Source: Anaerolinea sp. (GTDB lineage: Bacteria > Chloroflexota > Anaerolineae > Anaerolineales > Anaerolineaceae). From it: DNA of 6,210 nt. Position numbers and translations under genes: made by a program. A model generated the notes under the pieces. It was given only the letters and a program-made list of their open reading frames with translations. It ran no database searches and was not told the DNA's origin. Positions 251 to 6,210 of this stretch are shown one piece after another. Each line of letters starts with the position of its first letter. Within the stretch, counting starts at the first letter, position 1. The stretch spans positions 1 to 6,210 of the forward strand of contig PNNU01000214.1 in the NCBI GenBank assembly GCA_013824385.1, written 5' to 3'.

Positions 251-370
251 GCCTAACACCTCATGCAGCGGATAATTGGGCTTCTTCGCGAGTGGGTTAA
301 TACAGTTCTTAAACCGCGTTTCGTCCCCGCCCACAACTGCCCCACAGGGGCATAACAAAAACCGTTAGGC
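251..370 (+). repeat. attC-like recombination site A
   Basis: The 5' core GCCTAAC (251-257) and 3' core GTTAGGC (364-370) are perfect inverted 7-mers, and both fit the attC consensus RYYYAAC / GTTRRRY. They bound about 120 bp without a gene. Inside are the box TGCAGCGGATAATTGGG (264-280), which recurs in modified form in sites B and F, and the hairpin TGCCCC-ACA-GGGGCA (338-352), which recurs in site B. ATGC occurs next to both cores (inverted), which could form part of the inner L''/L' stem. The site sits between the stop of the upstream gene and the start of the YxiG-like gene, as expected for a cassette boundary. An integron integrase would be needed for activity; none is visible. Confidence 0.75.
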
Positions 371-382
371 GTTCGAAGAGAG

Positions 383-919
383 ATGATTATGCCCGGCACA
401 GTCAAAGAGATATTAGAACGCGAAGAATTTTCTGATGCTGCAATCTTGCGTCATGGTTTTACAGATTACATGAGAGACTATGACGTTATAGTTGGCGCAC
501 GTAACGGCCCACCCAATACTGATGTTCATAAATACCAGTTTGTCGGTTGCGTCGAAGCTCGTTATGAGACAAAACTCGGTAAAGACTTCTTACTTTCTAT
601 AACTGATGATTTTGTTTTCTCCGGGCCAGATTACCCAGATAAGCCTGATCCGAATGGTTTTATCTGGGGTGTTCGCTTCGCGGAGACGTGGGTAGGAGGA
701 GGGTTAAAATACATTCACAGTGGAGAGCGAGCAAAACATTGGTCAAAAATAATTGGGCGAGAAATGCATGAGGTTATCATAGACACAAACGCCTATGTTC
801 TGCAGTTGGTTTTTGCAGATATTCGCTATGCGTTCTTGGGGCACGAACCAGAAGTTCAATTTCCAAAAGATTATCCTTTGAAGATAAGTGAAATCACAAA
901 AGATGGCGGTGTGGTTTAA
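383..919 (+). CDS. YxiG-like family small protein of unknown function
   Basis: This 178-residue soluble protein has no signal peptide or membrane helix. The segment HGFTDYMRDYDVIV (residues 24-37), the later NGFIWGVRFAETW (91-103) and HEVIIDTNAYVLQLVFADI (129-147) resemble, from memory, the YxiG-like proteins of Bacillus and actinobacteria. The function of that family is not known to me, so the name is only a family label. The first ATG (383) directly abuts a purine-rich GAAGAGAG; the ATG at 389 has better spacing (about 6 nt) and may be the true start. The gene begins 12 bases after the 3' core of site A, and its TAA (917-919) lies within the 5' core of site B, so it fills one cassette of about 700 bp. 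Confidence 0.8.
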   Translation: MIMPGTVKEILEREEFSDAAILRHGFTDYMRDYDVIVGARNGPPNTDVHKYQFVGCVEARYETKLGKDFLLSITDDFVFSGPDYPDKPDPNGFIWGVRFAETWVGGGLKYIHSGERAKHWSKIIGREMHEVIIDTNAYVLQLVFADIRYAFLGHEPEVQFPKDYPLKISEITKDGGVV

Positions 920-1072
920 CCGCAAAACACCTGAAACAGCTTGCAGCAGAGGATTGGGTTCATCGCAATTAAGGATTATTTTCCTGGCATCGAGTCTTCC
1001 TGTTCTTAAAAACGCTTCATTCTGCCCCCACTTACCCCATAGGGGCATAACCGCAAACGCAAACCGTTAGGT
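914..1072 (+). repeat. attC-like recombination site B
   Basis: The 5' core GTTTAAC (914-920) overlaps the stop codon of the preceding gene, and the 3' core GTTAGGT (1066-1072) lies 11 bases before the GNAT start. Both fit the attC consensus, but they pair with each other only imperfectly. The interior is clearly homologous to site A: a TGCAGCAGAGGATTGGG box (942-958), a shared TTCTTAAA, and a 17-base block at 1035-1051 that differs from site A (340-356) at one base. At 159 bp it is longer than site A. A and B therefore belong to one family of sites. Confidence 0.7.
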
Positions 1073-1083
1073 AACAGGTAAAT

Positions 1084-1551
1084 ATGTCGCTAATGATCCA
1101 GGAAGTTTCTGTAATAAATGCTCCAATTGAGCTGCTGCTACTTGCCGATCCCTCGGAAGACAAGATTCGCTCCTATCTTCCAGGATCAAAGTGCTTTGTT
1201 GCTTTGAGTGGTGCGGATGTGGTTGGCGCATGCGTCGTTCAGCCACGTGGCAAAGACACTTATGAGCTGATGAGCATCGCTGTTCAACCAGACCACCAGA
1301 AGTTCGGATACGGCACAGCGCTCTTGAAATGGGTGATTGATTACTATCGCATCTCTGGAGCATGGCAACTTGAGGTGGGCACCGGCACGTTTGGTTATCA
1401 ACTCGCTTTCTACCAGCGACAGGGTTTTCGGGTTACAAGCATTGACCATGACTTCTTTATCAAGAATTACCCTGAACCAATCTTTGAGGACGGAATACAG
1501 CTCTTCGACATGCTTCGCCTTACATTGAGTTATTATGGCAATGGTGCCTGA
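1084..1551 (+). CDS. GNAT family N-acetyltransferase
   Basis: This 155-residue cytoplasmic protein is one GNAT domain. GNAT enzymes transfer an acetyl group from acetyl-CoA to an amine; the substrate here is unknown. Motif A covers about residues 61-83 (ELMSIAVQPDHQKFGYGTAL), with the CoA-pyrophosphate loop Q72-x-x-G75-x-G77, where the first position is Gln as in the Q/R-x-x-G-x-G/A consensus. Motif B is represented by LAFYQRQGFR (108-116), followed by DHDFFIKNYPEPIFEDGI (121-138), a tail I associate with a common uncharacterised GNAT subgroup. The ATG at 1084 follows AGGTA (1076-1080) at short spacing; the ATG at 1093 is possible. The TGA stop falls inside the 5' core of decayed site C. GNAT genes are frequent integron cassette cargo. 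Resistance activity cannot be inferred. Confidence 0.93.
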   Translation: MSLMIQEVSVINAPIELLLLADPSEDKIRSYLPGSKCFVALSGADVVGACVVQPRGKDTYELMSIAVQPDHQKFGYGTALLKWVIDYYRISGAWQLEVGTGTFGYQLAFYQRQGFRVTSIDHDFFIKNYPEPIFEDGIQLFDMLRLTLSYYGNGA

Positions 1552-1605
1552 CAATTCATTCAAGCCGGTACCGTTTCTTGGCGCCCATTTATATAAACGA
1601 TAGAT
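1545..1605 (+). repeat. Decayed attC site C, aadA-cassette-like type
   Basis: The block starting TGCCTGACAATTCATTCAAG aligns without gaps over about 61 bases to the short attC of aadA-type cassettes as I remember it, with about two thirds of positions matching. The 5' half (1545-1563) is the best preserved. The 5' core GCCTGAC (1546-1552) overlaps the TGA stop of the GNAT gene. The position of the 3' core reads GATAGAT (1599-1605) instead of GTTAGAT, so the cleavage triplet GTT is broken and the right arm no longer pairs well. This site differs in length and sequence from sites A, B, E and F, which implies a different cassette source. The alignment is from memory. Confidence 0.6.
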
Positions 1606-1689
1606 TTTAACAATCATCACTTACCTGTAGACCGAGGAATATTACTTCAAATGTCGACACCCTTTTCTGATATTTAGTAAAATATATTT

Positions 1690-2280
1690 ATGGAAGATAC
1701 TATTGATCTGTCACTAACCCGTTGTGAATGGAATCTTAATGATGTTATCCTAACCCGTTATCATGATGAAGAATGGGGAAACCCGCTTCACAATGACCAA
1801 ATGTTGTTTGAATTCCTGGCATTGGACGGAATGCAGGCTGGATTGAGTTGGAATACCATCTTACGCAAGCGGGAGAATTTTCGGCAGGCATTTGATAATT
1901 TTGAGATTGAAGTTGTTGCTGCATATAATGAAACGAAAATTCAGGAATTGCTCGCGAACGCGGGAATTGTTCGCAATAAAGCCAAAGTCAATGCGATCAT
2001 CAATAACGCCAATCGAGTCATCGCGATCCGCGAGGAATTTGGTTCATTGGATAATTATTTATGGGGATTCACCGAAAGGAAAGTCATCCAGAATAGTTGG
2101 CAGACCTTATCCCAAATTCCTGCAACCAGCGCAATTTCAGACGCCATGAGCAAAGATATGGTTGGGCGCGGATTTAAGTTCTGCGGCAGTACCATCCTAT
2201 ATGCGTTTATGCAGGCTGCAGGAATGGTAAATGACCATATTGTTTCTTGTTTCCGATATAAGGAATTGTATAAAGATTAA
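1690..2280 (+). CDS. tag: DNA-3-methyladenine glycosylase I
   Basis: This 196-residue protein aligns along its length with E. coli Tag (187 residues), which excises 3-methyladenine from alkylated DNA in base excision repair. The zinc ligands are present: C12 (RCEW), H25 (RYHDEEWG), H183 and C187 (GMVNDHIVSC). The base-binding loop DGMQAGLSW (46-54), KRENFRQAF and RGFKFCGSTILYAFMQA are all recognisable. E. coli Glu38 is replaced by Asp46 (LDG instead of LEG), a conservative change that I believe occurs in other homologues. No Shine-Dalgarno is visible before ATG 1690, but the N-terminus matches the family, with a few extra residues. The gene has its own terminator downstream. It follows decayed site C and precedes the site D remnant, so it is either cassette cargo or a resident gene. 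Confidence 0.96.
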   Translation: MEDTIDLSLTRCEWNLNDVILTRYHDEEWGNPLHNDQMLFEFLALDGMQAGLSWNTILRKRENFRQAFDNFEIEVVAAYNETKIQELLANAGIVRNKAKVNAIINNANRVIAIREEFGSLDNYLWGFTERKVIQNSWQTLSQIPATSAISDAMSKDMVGRGFKFCGSTILYAFMQAAGMVNDHIVSCFRYKELYKD

Positions 2281-2288
2281 TTATCAAA

Positions 2289-2313
2289 GAGTAGTAATTT
2301 GTGAGTAGTAATT
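2289..2313 (+). repeat. Short tandem direct repeat after tag
   Basis: GAGTAGTAATT occurs twice (2289-2299 and 2303-2313), with a 14-base period, between the tag stop codon and the terminator hairpin. It may be a slippage duplication; no function can be assigned. Confidence 0.5.
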
Positions 2314-2316
2314 AGG

Positions 2317-2347
2317 AAGTGCCTGTCTGATGGATGGGCACTTTTTT
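2317..2347 (+). terminator. Rho-independent terminator after tag
   Basis: AAGTGCC (2317-2323) pairs perfectly with GGCACTT (2337-2343), with a 13-base loop in which TC/GA can also pair. The stem runs directly into a T tract (2342-2347). It lies 36 bases after the tag stop, on the same strand, and is the clearest intrinsic terminator in the window. It separates tag transcription from the lipoprotein gene. Confidence 0.8.
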
Positions 2348-2348
2348 G

Positions 2349-2376
2349 TTGCATCAATTGTGGAATTTTGTATAAT
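2349..2376 (+). promoter_or_regulatory. Candidate sigma70-type promoter for the lipoprotein gene
   Basis: A perfect TATAAT (2371-2376) is preceded at 16 bases by TTGCAT (2349-2354), a weak match to TTGACA. It lies just after the tag terminator and about 125 bases before the lipoprotein ATG, so a transcript would run through the site D remnant. The surrounding DNA is AT-rich, which raises the chance of a random match. Confidence 0.4.
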
Positions 2377-2428
2377 TTAATTGAAGAGAAAAAAGTTTCA
2401 ATTTCTAAATATTTTCCAAACCCACCCC

Positions 2429-2461
2429 AGCGCCATGCTTCGCGAACGCAAACCGTTGGGC
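2429..2461 (+). repeat. attC-like site D, 3' arm only
   Basis: The block AGCGCCATGCTTCGCG through the 3' core GTTGGGC (2455-2461) matches the end of site F (5549-5581) at 28 of 33 positions by eye. No 5' core GCCCAAC and no partner for the GCTTCGCGAA arm is present between the tag terminator and this block. The left arm therefore seems lost or replaced, possibly when the tag region joined the array. The 3' core itself is intact. Confidence 0.6.
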
Positions 2462-2488
2462 GGCTAAAAATATTCTTATCACATCAAA

Positions 2489-2493
2489 AGGAG
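2489..2493 (+). promoter_or_regulatory. Ribosome binding site of the lipoprotein gene
   Basis: AGGAG lies 8 bases before ATG 2502. It is a strong Shine-Dalgarno that fixes the start and matches a normal signal peptide at the encoded N-terminus. Confidence 0.8.
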
Positions 2494-2501
2494 AATAAAC
2501 C

Positions 2502-4298
2502 ATGCAACGGATTATTCCACGCCTGATGATTTGTCTTTGTTTATCGTTTACTACTGCCTGCTCACAGCAAACATCAGTCACTCCGACATCTATTATTCCA
2601 TCTACATCACCGGCAACTTATACGCCGATGAAATCACCCCAACCACCTACAGCTACGAGCCTTCCACCGACTCCTGCCATCGGAAGAGGATTAGCTCCTG
2701 GCCTGAAACTGGAAAGATTCCACGAGCCGACCATGTCGCCGGTTCTGGTGCGCTTTGGGCCAAACGATGAACTCCTGCTTTTGGATACCAATTCCTGGGA
2801 GATAGAACAACTCCAGTCCAATGGATCACTGACTGTTTATGCTTCCTTCCCGGAGTTATCAACGACAAGTGGTGCATTGGAACACTTCGGTTTCGATCCA
2901 TCCGGGCGACTATGGATCTCGACCCATCATGGCGGTACATATCGGATCGCAGACGATGGCTCCCCTGAGTGGGTTGCCAGCGCGCATCGCGTATTTGCCT
3001 TTAACTCACAGGGAATCATGTATGCAGTGGATTCCCCGTCATCCAATGTTCAAAGAATTACCCCTGAAGGTCAGGTCACTGAACTTGCTGAAGGCTTTGG
3101 AAGAGCACATAATATCGCCATAGGACCAAACGATGAAATTCTGGTCGTTGAACAAGACAGGGGAGAGCTCATTCAGGTATTTGAGGACGGTCATTGGGTG
3201 AAGATAACAGATGGACTAAGTATTGATCACAGCATCGCAGTAGCGCCTGATAGGACGGTCTATCTTATGGATTGGAGCGGTATCCAGGAGGTGGATTTAA
3301 ACGCGGGAACGAAAACGAATCTGGATTGGTACGAAAAGTATTCAAATTCTGGCGAGAAGGGAATTTTCGACAGCGCCGGATATATGTATACATTTCACCC
3401 CAATCAACCAATCTACCGCCTGGATTTTCAAACCCAGACCTGCGAAATGATATTCCATCCGCAGGGATACACCTGGGCAATGGCGGTAGGACCAGATAGT
3501 AGGGTTTTTGCTGGCTATGGGGGTTTGGTTGCTGGTTCGGAAACAACACTGTATGAAATCACCGAGGGCGATATTTTGGTACCCCTATGGACCGTACCTT
3601 ATCGTTTTCCAACCAGTATAACCTTTACTCCGGAAGGGATCGGTTTCTTAGCGGTTTATGGTCATAAAAAAGTTGAGTATGGGCAAGCGGGATTTTGGAA
3701 TGGTATGATCTATTCCTTTGATCTCGTGAACGGGTCATATGAAGAATACGCCGAAACAAAAGGGCTTCCTCATGAGATTGACGTCGACCCAACGACGGGG
3801 GATTTATGGTGGACTCTTCATCAAAGTCTTTGGGTAAAGCGCACTGATGGTCAAATCATCCAGGTAAGTTACCCTGGGGACGATCGTTCGGCACAACCTC
3901 GCCACTTGACTTTTTCCTCCGATGGAACTTTATACGCGCTGATTGATTTGCCACCAGACGGTCATTTACTCTGGCATAATCGTCTTTATAGCCGCGACAC
4001 AACTGGGAACTGGACCGAACTGGTTGTTGCAGATGGGCCACAGCTGGGACTTTTGAGCCAAGCGATATGCCCGGATGGGAGTAATTATCTTTTCGGGTAT
4101 ACATGGGAATCAGCCACGGTTGTAACCGACTCCAATCGGACTGGTCTCGTTTACGCGATCTGGAAACTGGAAGATAATGGGATACTAACCTTGCTTGGTT
4201 ATGATGCCGGCAGCGATTCGTTTGCATCAGATTGCGATCCAATTACCAATGACGTATATTTTATAACTACTGACGGGATACTCCGTCTTTCTTGGTAA
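2502..4298 (+). CDS. Secreted beta-propeller lipoprotein (NHL / SMP-30-like repeats)
   Basis: This 598-residue protein begins with a lipoprotein signal peptide (two Arg, a hydrophobic core, then FTTAC with the predicted lipidated Cys20). A Ser/Thr/Pro-rich linker follows at about 21-60, which would hold the protein away from the membrane. The rest consists of repeats with a hydrophobic strand, Pro/Gly turn and second strand. Examples are FDPSGRLWIS (131-140), IAIGPNDEILVV (205-216), IAVAPDRTVYLMD (245-257), IDVDPTTGDLWWTL (426-439) and LTFSSDGTLYALI (469-481). I count about twelve such units from residue 85 to 590, compatible with two six-bladed propellers. The fold resembles NHL, SMP-30/gluconolactonase and virginiamycin-lyase-like propellers, but I cannot identify a catalytic set, so an enzyme name is not justified. 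A binding role outside the cell is possible. Confidence 0.88.
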   Translation: MQRIIPRLMICLCLSFTTACSQQTSVTPTSIIPSTSPATYTPMKSPQPPTATSLPPTPAIGRGLAPGLKLERFHEPTMSPVLVRFGPNDELLLLDTNSWEIEQLQSNGSLTVYASFPELSTTSGALEHFGFDPSGRLWISTHHGGTYRIADDGSPEWVASAHRVFAFNSQGIMYAVDSPSSNVQRITPEGQVTELAEGFGRAHNIAIGPNDEILVVEQDRGELIQVFEDGHWVKITDGLSIDHSIAVAPDRTVYLMDWSGIQEVDLNAGTKTNLDWYEKYSNSGEKGIFDSAGYMYTFHPNQPIYRLDFQTQTCEMIFHPQGYTWAMAVGPDSRVFAGYGGLVAGSETTLYEITEGDILVPLWTVPYRFPTSITFTPEGIGFLAVYGHKKVEYGQAGFWNGMIYSFDLVNGSYEEYAETKGLPHEIDVDPTTGDLWWTLHQSLWVKRTDGQIIQVSYPGDDRSAQPRHLTFSSDGTLYALIDLPPDGHLLWHNRLYSRDTTGNWTELVVADGPQLGLLSQAICPDGSNYLFGYTWESATVVTDSNRTGLVYAIWKLEDNGILTLLGYDAGSDSFASDCDPITNDVYFITTDGILRLSW

Positions 4299-4335
4299 GC
4301 AACGGGGGCCTTATCTTAGTAAAGGACACCACACC

Positions 4336-4457
4336 GCCCAACACCGGCTCCACCTGACCGCCTTTAGCGCGGGGATGCGGCGGCCATTCGGTAGAAAAAG
4401 TGATTTTACGCAATCTCGTCTCGCCAAATCGGCGGTAGGTATGCCAAACCGTTGGGC
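4336..4457 (+). repeat. attC-like recombination site E (best-folding)
   Basis: The 5' core GCCCAAC (4336-4342) and 3' core GTTGGGC (4451-4457) are perfect inverted 7-mers. Next to the cores, the left arm reads GGCTCCACCTGACCGCC; the right arm, read as reverse complement, gives GGCATACCTACCGCC. GGC, ACCT and ACCGCC therefore pair, with an unpaired spacer after the core and an extra G bulged from the left arm. This is the R''-spacer-L'' / L'-spacer-R' layout, with an extrahelical base, that integron integrases recognise on a folded single strand. The centre (about 4365-4425) would be the variable loop. The site lies between the lipoprotein stop and the HEAT-like gene. Confidence 0.8.
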
Positions 4458-4480
4458 AAACGAGCATTGGGCATGCAAAA

Positions 4481-4485
4481 AAGGA
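4481..4485 (+). promoter_or_regulatory. Ribosome binding site of the HEAT-like gene
   Basis: AAGGA lies 7 bases before ATG 4493 and supports that start. It is 23 bases past the 3' core of site E, so the cassette carries its own translation signal. I see no promoter for this gene. Confidence 0.65.
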
Positions 4486-4492
4486 TAATAAT

Positions 4493-5146
4493 ATGGATAT
4501 ATTAACTGCGCTAAAAAACAATAAAGGAACAGTCTCAAGTGCTTTGGGAAAAGAAATAGCATCTGAAATATTGCAGGGTAAATATCAATTATTAGAAACG
4601 GTTATTCCTCTTGTCACATATAATCTAAATAATATAAAAGATAAAAATATTAGAGCTGGTGCAGCAAAAGTTGTAGAGTGTGTAGCTGAAAAAAGGGCAG
4701 ATTTGATTTCACCATATATTTCTGAATTGATAAATGCTTTAGAAGTGGAAGAACCTCAAACAAAGTGGATGATATTTATGGCTTTAGGCTATTGCGCCAA
4801 AGGTAATGAAAAGAATGTAAAACATGCCCTTGTTTATGCAAAAAAATACATTAACCAAAAAAAAGACGGGCAGTTATGTTTATTAGGAGCGATTGACCTA
4901 TTTTTAGGGCATTATGGTGAAATATCAGAAAAAAATGCAGCAGAGGTTTTTCCTTTGTTGTTAGAATCATCAGATAACACTATTTATAATGAACAAGATT
5001 GGATATTAGAAGGATTTATTAGAATTGCTCCCAATCTAACAAAAAAAGAAAAAGACGTAATTGTTCAAATTGCAAATGAATATAAAGAGAATAGCAAGAA
5101 AGCAACACAAAAAAGAGCTGAAAAACTATTAAAGATATGCGTCTAA
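4493..5146 (+). CDS. HEAT-repeat-like alpha-solenoid protein, function unknown
   Basis: This 217-residue protein has no signal peptide or membrane segment and appears all-helical. Consecutive amphipathic helices, such as YQLLETVIPLVTYNL (31-45), NIRAGAAKVVECVAEKR (52-68), LISPYISELINALEV (71-85), KWMIFMALGYCA (91-102) and VKHALVYAKKYI (109-120), are spaced as in HEAT or ARM repeats. The C-terminus (184-214) is rich in Lys and Glu. Such proteins usually bind other proteins or nucleic acids; no enzymatic motif is seen. Base composition is distinctive: four sampled 60-base lines average about 28% GC, against about 47% in sampled lines of the lipoprotein gene, which suggests a foreign origin. The TAA overlaps an attC-type 5' core (5141-5147). 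Confidence 0.85.
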   Translation: MDILTALKNNKGTVSSALGKEIASEILQGKYQLLETVIPLVTYNLNNIKDKNIRAGAAKVVECVAEKRADLISPYISELINALEVEEPQTKWMIFMALGYCAKGNEKNVKHALVYAKKYINQKKDGQLCLLGAIDLFLGHYGEISEKNAAEVFPLLLESSDNTIYNEQDWILEGFIRIAPNLTKKEKDVIVQIANEYKENSKKATQKRAEKLLKICV

Positions 5147-5169
5147 CAAAAGATTCTACCTGACTCACC
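5141..5169 (+). repeat. attC-like 5' half-site at the end of the HEAT-like gene
   Basis: GTCTAAC (5141-5147) fits RYYYAAC and contains the TAA stop. It is followed by CTACCTGACTCACC (5156-5169), which resembles CTCCACCTGACCGCC in the left arm of site E. A matching 3' core GTTRRRY at normal distance was not found. It is probably the left end of a site whose right arm was lost or displaced by the following G+T-rich DNA. Confidence 0.5.
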
Positions 5170-5199
5170 TATGTTTCAGAATTTTGATTAATGAGCGCG

Positions 5200-5420
5200 G
5201 CTCTTTATTAAGTTGCGTCGGGTTGCGGCGAAGGTTTCGGGTGATCTTTTCGGGTTTTCGCTGTCTACGTTTTGGCTGGCGGTTTAGAGTTGGCGCAGCT
5301 CAAGTTGGGAAACGAAGTGAAAAGTGCATTTTTGTGGCGGGTTCCTGCGGTGCGGGCGGTTGTCTGGTTTGGCGCGGGCTGTGGTTAATTTGGAAGGCTG
5401 GCGAAAGCGGAGCTATGTCA
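5200..5420. other. G+T-rich stretch without a recognisable gene
   Basis: By hand count, 5221-5400 contains 71 G, 28 C, 58 T and 23 A on the + strand, so about 72% is G or T. Open frames here on both strands run into site F, lack a plausible ribosome site and give low-complexity or Arg/Cys-rich products, so I do not call a gene. GTTGGG occurs at 5304-5309, but the next base is A, so it is not a full 3' core. The stretch may be a decayed site or inserted DNA. Confidence 0.5.
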
Positions 5421-5438
5421 AAAGCGTCTGTCAAAATC

Positions 5439-5581
5439 GCCCAACACCGCGTGCATCGGACAAGTTGGGATTCTGCGCGATTTACAAGCATTTCGCGAAG
5501 CTTGGCTTCGAGTTTTTCCTGCTCCCAAGCAGAATCCACGCCTGCCTTAGCGCCAAGCTTCGCGAAGGCAAGCCGCTGGGT
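5439..5581 (+). repeat. attC-like recombination site F
   Basis: The 5' core GCCCAAC (5439-5445) is perfect. The 3' core reads GCTGGGT (5575-5581), so the GTT triplet at the expected crossover point is altered. TGCATCGGA and TTGGG (5452-5469) relate it to sites A and B. The interior has strong inverted repeats: GGATTCTGC (5468-5476) with GCAGAATCC (5529-5537), and TTCGCGAAGCTTGGC (5492-5506) with its perfect 15-base complement at 5552-5566. These pairings compete, as the second arm pair crosses the first. The site ends 37 bases before the aminopeptidase start. Confidence 0.7.
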
Positions 5582-5607
5582 GCACATCTATTAAATTATC
5601 AAAGCTC

Positions 5608-5614
5608 AAGGAGA
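5608..5614 (+). promoter_or_regulatory. Ribosome binding site of the aminopeptidase gene
   Basis: AAGGAGA lies 4 bases before ATG 5619 (5 to 6 counted from the AGGAG core). It is the strongest Shine-Dalgarno near this start and agrees with the family's N-terminus. Confidence 0.8.
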
Positions 5615-5618
5615 AAAT

Positions 5619-6210
5619 ATGTCTGACTTACGTGTGACCAAGCTCGCGAATGTGCTTGTCAACTATTCGCTTGAGATCAAACCTGGGCAGAAATTTCTGA
5701 TCATTGCCAATCCGCTGGCAAGTGAATTAACGCTTGCGGTGTATGAGGAGGCAATCAAAGCAGGGGCACATGTTTATATAGACCAACCCCTGGATGAAGC
5801 TCAGGAAATCTTCTATAAACTTGCATCGGACGAACAACTGGATTTTGTTTCACCGATCGAACAACTGATCACCGGTACATTTGACGCCACTTTGTATATT
5901 GGTGCATCCTCAAACAGCCGCACTCTCAGCGGGGTTGACCCTCAATGCATGGAGCGCAATAGTAAAGCCTATTCGGAACTCATGAAAACTCATATGGAAC
6001 GTTCTGCACGAGGAGAGTTACATTGGTGCGTCACTGTTTATCCAAATAACGCTTATGCACAAGATGCCGAGATGTCGCTGCGCGATTACACAGAATTTGT
6101 ATATGGTGCAGGAATGTTAAACGAAGATGATCCAACCGTATTTTGGAAAGCACTGGGCAAACGCCAAAACAAACTCGTTGATTGGCTGAAAGGTCATAGC
6201 GGCGCAATTC
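5619..6210 (+). CDS. Peptidase family M29 aminopeptidase, N-terminal part (cut by window end)
   Basis: The frame stays open from ATG 5619 to the window end and gives 197 residues, about half of the usual 400 or so of the family. M29 enzymes (AmpS, AmpT, PepS) are cytoplasmic metal-dependent aminopeptidases that remove N-terminal residues from peptides. Recognisable segments are the N-terminal KLANVLVNYSLEIKPGQKFL (8-27), the following domain with AVYEEAIKAGAHVYID, and ERSARGELHWCVTVYPN followed by AQDAEMSLRDYTEFVYGAGM. The metal-binding Glu and His residues lie in the C-terminal half and cannot be checked here. The gene follows site F, so it is either the next cassette or the resident gene at the edge of the array. 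Confidence 0.94.
   Translation, partial: MSDLRVTKLANVLVNYSLEIKPGQKFLIIANPLASELTLAVYEEAIKAGAHVYIDQPLDEAQEIFYKLASDEQLDFVSPIEQLITGTFDATLYIGASSNSRTLSGVDPQCMERNSKAYSELMKTHMERSARGELHWCVTVYPNNAYAQDAEMSLRDYTEFVYGAGMLNEDDPTVFWKALGKRQNKLVDWLKGHSGAI

Follow-up and report, generated by a model that had tools for sequence, protein, structure and literature searches.

A metagenomic contig that very probably comes from the interior of an integron cassette array in an Anaerolineae bacterium

The contig PNNU01000214.1 (assembly GCA_013824385.1, Anaerolinea sp.) carries genes of unrelated function separated by sites of the attC type, at which the cassettes of integrons are recombined. The window, as the analysed DNA is called here, is this entire metagenome contig of 6,210 bases; it terminates on both sides and is a piece of a longer DNA. 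It very probably comes from within the cassette array of an integron in an Anaerolineae bacterium. The sites, the family to which they belong, the presence of this family beside integrases in relatives, and the occurrence of one segment in a second array, where a core marks its boundary, have been observed directly. Each segment between two 3' cores would be a gene cassette, made up of a gene and the attC behind it, or would descend from one. Recombination of attC at the core G^TTRRRY would be carried out by an integron integrase whose gene is, or once was, elsewhere in the genome; cassettes would thereby be excised as circles and inserted again at other positions, always in the same orientation. 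Catalysis, a role of the folded bottom strand, and any present activity of the array are proposed by analogy with known integrons. A sequence-only reading of the same DNA had already described an integron-like cassette array, and this description is supported by the sites found with a covariance model (R1), by the traits of the attC family and by the segment recovered from a second locus (L001).

Five 3' ends (364, 1066, 2455, 4451 and 5575) had been said to share AAACCGTTRGG or a variant of it, which is correct: four exact copies are located at 359, 1061, 2450 and 4446 and a copy with two mismatches at 5570, all of them on the plus strand. When up to two mismatches are allowed on both strands, the window contains 8 matches versus 2.88 expected, a number reached in one of 200 shuffles. 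The distances between the 3' cores (702, 1389, 1996 and 1124 bases) agree with the range of about 700 to 2000 bp given before. The left core RYYYAAC is present at 251, 914, 4336 and 5439, as had been reported, among nine such heptamers on the plus strand. The R'' and R' cores (RYYYAAC and GTTRRRY) are complementary at 7/7 positions for 251/364 and 4336/4451, i.e. in two of the five sites; GTTTAAC at 914, however, is complementary to its partner at 1066 at 4/7 positions only, and for that site the model has a degenerate left core at 929.

Model R1 was built from 28 attC sites of Anaerolineae and contains no sequence from the window, its members having been selected by likeness to site 5. From 20 fetched regions, 72 BLAST pieces led to 30 delimited sites, two of which were left out of the alignment: L178:10968-11060, with a right core apparently misassigned, and L179:4771-4923, which is irregular. 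A covariance search, the kind of check that had been recommended, returns with R1 five ordered sites on the plus strand of the window (Table 1); the best scores on the minus strand are 6.4 and 6.3. The view that intact or damaged attC-like sites separate the genes holds for five sites, but the one at 2455 is a right half-site only. No site is found from 1073 to 2419 at E<=1, hence none between the GNAT and tag genes. Filters were off on the window and at default on 19 control loci (14 near M29 relatives and five near tag; 298,923 bases), where R1 gives no match at E<=1. In 46 loci, most of them bearing attC or integrase and with the training sites included, R1 matches 105 times at E<=0.01; L176 accounts for 18 of the sites and L178 for 17. 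A stretch of a Vibrio plasmid (L208) has no attC site either by pattern or by R1. A regular-expression finder with arm scoring gave 83 matches in 486,292 bases against 35 when these were reversed and was too weak, for which reason the covariance model was used instead.

In the members of this family, R'' is followed by a nine-base spacer similar to AAAGCGTGC and by L'', which contains an unpaired A; after a long middle part come L', a second spacer similar to AACGCAAACC, and finally R'. The conserved unpaired A and paired, co-changing L arms are present across the family: in the 28 sites, L'' and L' show 56 cells with two-sided change versus 24.6 (sd 3.9) in shuffles and a covariation score of 0.271 versus 0.129, and 89.4% of the cells of the arms are paired versus 26.9-41.8% in slid structures. 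Site 4 has the best-preserved architecture of the window, with 7/7 cores, paired L arms and one unpaired base, and its relatives by DNA match are found in genomes G542, G650 and G658. Site 5 belongs to the Anaerolineae family, with DNA matches of 71-92% in many genomes, restricted to positions 5423-5557. As for site 3, positions 2430-2465 match contig C9 of genome G081 at 92%. In the R1 alignment, pairing of the L arms is imperfect at sites 1, 2 and 5. Folded as single-stranded DNA, the bottom strand gives z -1.80 for site 4 (13/200 shuffles as good) and -1.62 for site 5 (14/200); one member of the family folds at z -1.81 on the bottom strand and -2.07 on the top strand. A perfect 15-base inverted repeat in site 5 (5492-5506 and 5552-5566) dominates its fold instead of the usual L arms.

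A segment that leaves as a circle would form one attC from its start and its end, so its own ends are expected to be more complementary than adjoining ends. This was analysed with 78 of the 105 R1 matches plus the five sites of the window. In 62 reference segments the own ends share 8.23 contiguous complementary bases on average versus 4.39 for adjoining ends; with shuffled starts the mean is 4.21 and the largest value of 2,000 shuffles is 5.08. At least 8 contiguous bases are found for own ends in 45/62 of these segments versus 6/62 for adjoining ends. Within the window, the segment of the 598-residue protein has 9 contiguous bases between its own ends and 7 with the neighbouring end, and the HEAT-like segment has 7 and 1, respectively.

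The segment of the M29 aminopeptidase gene is also present in another array. When genomes were scanned with the M29 fragment, 184 stretches matched; a relative is encoded by 147 of them, and 80 were kept. The protein of one of them, L001 (in the Thermoflexales bin G001), is 86% identical to that of the window, versus 35-48% for the other 79. At the DNA level, L001 matches window positions 5572-6197 at 87%, and the match starts at the attC core (GCCGYTGGGTGC). There is no other DNA match between L001 and the rest of the window at E<=1e-3, nothing upstream of 5572, and the neighbours differ. The comparison of related genomes for the gain or loss of whole segments, which had also been advised, finds the M29 segment recurring alone with its boundary at a core. 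This left boundary is a core site in L001, and the right one lies outside the window contig. L001 carries two attC sites matched by R1 and is itself an attC array; a third site, directly before the M29 gene, is an attC of another type that was read by eye and has no R1 match. The M29 gene of L001 encodes a protein of 367 residues and is followed by GCACCCAACACGG, the first nine bases of which, by eye, complement the segment's own start GTTGGGTGC. The cargo had been said to include genes usually considered chromosomal, namely tag and perhaps the M29 peptidase: M29 does lie in a segment with an attC core as its boundary, while for tag only its position in the array is shown.

In L001, the M29 segment is followed by an attC, and about 0.2 kb beyond the left half of this site an IS110-family transposase (Transposase_20, 54.2 bits) is encoded at L001:3519-4019. 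The insertion of insertion sequence (IS) elements in attC sites is known.

Integron integrases are frequent in the lineage. In the class of G001 (Anaerolineae, 396 genomes), NCBIfam TIGR02249 matches above its cut-off in 98 genomes; in the phylum it does so in 30 of 301 genomes, with 0/14 controls both times. At the loose E<=0.01 all 14 control genomes match, so only cut-off results were used. R1 at E<=1e-6 matches 91/396 genomes of the class, with only eight candidates scored per genome. Integrase (110 genomes at E<=1e-40) and attC family (the same 91) occur together in 47 genomes (odds ratio 4.1, Fisher p 4e-8, uncorrected for kinship and bin completeness). Among 12 integrase rows, chosen by eye because an attC row stands on the same contig, 11 have an attC on the opposite strand at a distance of 0.8-9.4 kb, which is the usual layout; in the exceptional one (G298:C11) the two lie on the same strand, 90 kb apart.

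Two side observations concern the distribution of these elements. In the Thermoflexales bin, L091 (G001:C1444) encodes at 839-1820 an integron integrase split across three reading frames, either by sequencing error or by decay; five contigs of this bin, that of the integrase included, have no core pair by a strict pattern. Besides, among the genomes with M29 relatives that are named as other groups, R1 matches in 2/43: G670, a Candidatus Aquidulcis bin that holds L027 (six sites), and G673, a Bipolaricaulota bin that holds L033 (one site). This could perhaps reflect transfer beyond Anaerolineae or misbinned contigs.

Several results weigh against an integron array. There is no integrase within the window. 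The own ends of the YxiG-like segment (0 contiguous bases) and of the GNAT/tag segment (1) are not complementary, i.e. two of the four testable segments fail, which fits with damaged sites there. Bottom-strand folds of sites 1 (z 0.26) and 2 (z 0.54) are no better than shuffles, and the 75.6 bits of site 5 are high partly by construction because the training members of R1 were picked by likeness to it. Two of the five covariation measures are not above shuffles (8 pairs with two-sided change vs 7.6, and 24 pair types vs 22.6). Finally, M29 is the only segment of the window located elsewhere at the DNA level in the 396 class genomes, and L001 is a 4-kb contig that may be misplaced in its bin, although the core-bounded match holds whatever the name of the bin.

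Since sites 1, 2 and 3 look decayed, the mobility of the YxiG-like and GNAT/tag segments is probably low today. There is about an even chance that the window is a decayed cluster of attC sites lacking its own integrase (CALIN), with segments that now behave like ordinary chromosomal genes and would be moved only by an integrase encoded elsewhere; this explanation differs from a cassette array in present activity and not in origin. It agrees with the absence of an integrase from the contig, with the degeneracy of three of the five sites and with the 44 of the 91 class genomes that have the attC family and no integrase at E<=1e-40. On the other hand, the contig is merely 6.2 kb long, a length to be compared with the 0.8-9.4 kb between integrase and nearest listed attC in 11 of the 12 hand-picked rows, and missing integrases carry little weight, since metagenome-assembled genomes are incomplete. 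Because the contig ends, a sedentary integron is indistinguishable from a cluster of attC sites that lacks an integrase; of the three options left by the sequence-only reading these two remain, and the third, a repeat family resembling attC, is unlikely. A lineage-specific dispersed repeat unconnected to integrases would also account for those 44 genomes, but it is very improbable given the pairing L arms with co-changing letters, the conserved unpaired A, the position of the family next to integrases and on the opposite strand in relatives, the complementarity of the own ends of segments, and a segment boundary at the core shared by otherwise unrelated arrays (the window and L001).

An equally balanced question is the origin of tag, which encodes 3-methyladenine DNA glycosylase I: either this chromosomal gene landed here by a non-integron event that destroyed the left half of site 3, or it belongs to a two-gene segment with a decayed site. 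The first explanation is favoured by the lack of attC between GNAT and tag, with only a right half-site after tag, by DNA matches of tag in many class genomes, by five tag loci (about 1.5 kb of flanks) without any R1 site, and by the AT-rich DNA on both sides of the gene (34.1 and 28.1% GC). Decay of the site would nevertheless give an identical picture, and two-gene cassettes exist.

Table 1. Putative attC sites, segments and main open reading frames (ORFs) of the window
Feature	Position	Strand	Description
attC site 1	251..370	+	R1 29.1 bits, E 9.5e-8; cores 7/7; L arms degenerate
attC site 2	929..1072	+	R1 39.3 bits, E 7.9e-11; left core degenerate
attC site 3, right half only	2420..2461	+	R1 12.9 bits, E 0.0074
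attC site 4	4336..4457	+	R1 26.1 bits, E 7.5e-7
attC site 5	5439..5581	+	R1 75.6 bits, E 8.3e-22; R' core altered to GCTGGGT
YxiG-like segment	365..1065	+	ORF 383-919, PF24712 (Pfam, 96.4 bits); between sites 1 and 2
GNAT/tag segment	1067..2454	+	GNAT acetyltransferase 1084-1551, tag 1690-2280 (Pfam)
598-residue protein segment	2456..4450	+	ORF 2502-4298, lipoprotein-like start
HEAT-like segment	4452..5575	+	ORF 4493-5146, 217-residue protein
M29 aminopeptidase segment	5576..6210	+	ORF from 5619 to the contig end; right end beyond the contig
Seven main ORFs		+	Cut 79-residue end, YxiG-like, GNAT, tag, 598-residue, 217-residue, M29 start

The unrelated cargo, its single orientation and the lack of a visible integrase, as described from the sequence, all hold in the window (Table 1). 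No recombinase or integrase was found among the seven main ORFs by a Pfam scan that did not cover the remaining small ORFs, and neither a sulfonamide-resistance gene nor an ISCR element is present among the ORFs scanned. The 598-residue protein has a weak Vgb_lyase match under the Pfam cut-off; the 217-residue protein has weak HEAT-like similarity, with sub-threshold matches to HEAT_EZ and DVU0298; the M29 ORF includes the first 197 residues only (PF02073, 124.6 bits). PADLOC has no match for six of the proteins, and an Rfam scan of the window yields two matches (E 0.21 and 0.28), both far under the gathering scores. In a DNA search against the 396 class genomes, the window has a match in 68, with none for the YxiG-like, GNAT, 598-residue and HEAT-like genes; PF24712 is found in 0/396, a zero that is uninformative as the controls are likewise without match. 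No match was found in phages, nor was any relative of M29 or YxiG confirmed in viral contigs. Plasmids show one 145-base DNA match to the GNAT gene and, by protein, 47 records, all below 60% identity. Among the 120 GNAT relatives listed of 1,097, those 75-88% identical come from many metagenomes and from records of Niveibacterium, Pseudoxanthomonas and Opitutaceae, so this gene seems to cross phyla. Of the 120 tag homologues listed, P0002-P0008 are 92-97% identical to the protein of the window and the lineage-named ones are HGW-Chloroflexi-4 (87%) and Anaerolineaceae bacteria (84 and 81%). As the lineage-named ones are all Chloroflexota, the origin that had been considered probable, a Chloroflexota genome, is well supported.

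Integrons of Chloroflexota have already been published, and the array of the window adds a further example. In the portions available of PMC8618304 (The Natural History of Integrons) and PMC9668308 (on archaeal integrons) this phylum is among those listed with integrons, and in that of PMC12772301 a Chloroflexota bin is reported to carry sul4, associated there with integron integrases. According to the part available of PMC8352920, its taxon-specific attC models are for 11 taxa that do not include Chloroflexota, and the word Chloroflex is absent from that paper. Among the papers listed on CALINs and on integrons of Chloroflexota or Anaerolineae, no title or abstract opening describes an attC family of Anaerolineae, subscription papers being mostly uncovered. 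Compared with sedentary chromosomal integrons, as these are presented in the parts consulted of PMC8618304 and PMC9668308, the window is similar in its tandem one-orientation segments with unrelated genes, in its attC sites of about 120-145 bases, in one attC type common in the lineage, and in integrases divergent from the array in Anaerolineae relatives. Unlike them, the 6,210 bases contain neither the intI nor the attI of an array head, and its sites are uneven and partly decayed, unlike the conserved attCs of sedentary arrays in PMC8618304. CALINs are defined in the available text of PMC9668308 by the presence of at least 2 attCs with less than 4 kb between them and by the lack of an integrase; the window resembles them in its five sites 0.7-2.0 kb apart and in the lack of a visible integrase, but its sites were called by R1 and not by the IntegronFinder model, and the contig may be cut off from an integrase. 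With the sul4 integron, as far as the accessible text of PMC12772301 describes it, the window shares an integron context in Chloroflexota and, as far as its ORFs were scanned, not the resistance gene or the ISCR element.

The attC family typical of Anaerolineae, the class-wide counts and the M29 aminopeptidase as a cassette may be new. For a phylum that is otherwise only named in lists in the portions available of the integron literature, the analysis provides a cassette array that has been checked, an attC model (R1) usable for Anaerolineae and a concrete case of an M29 aminopeptidase gene carried in a cassette. It is rather probable that the Anaerolineae own a large pool of cassettes, with about one quarter of the species bearing an integron integrase, about one quarter bearing one class-spanning attC family, and cassettes that carry enzymes such as an M29 aminopeptidase crossing between its orders. 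The frequencies of the integrase (98/396) and of the attC family (91/396) suggest that the uncultured Anaerolineae are a sizeable reservoir of cassettes.

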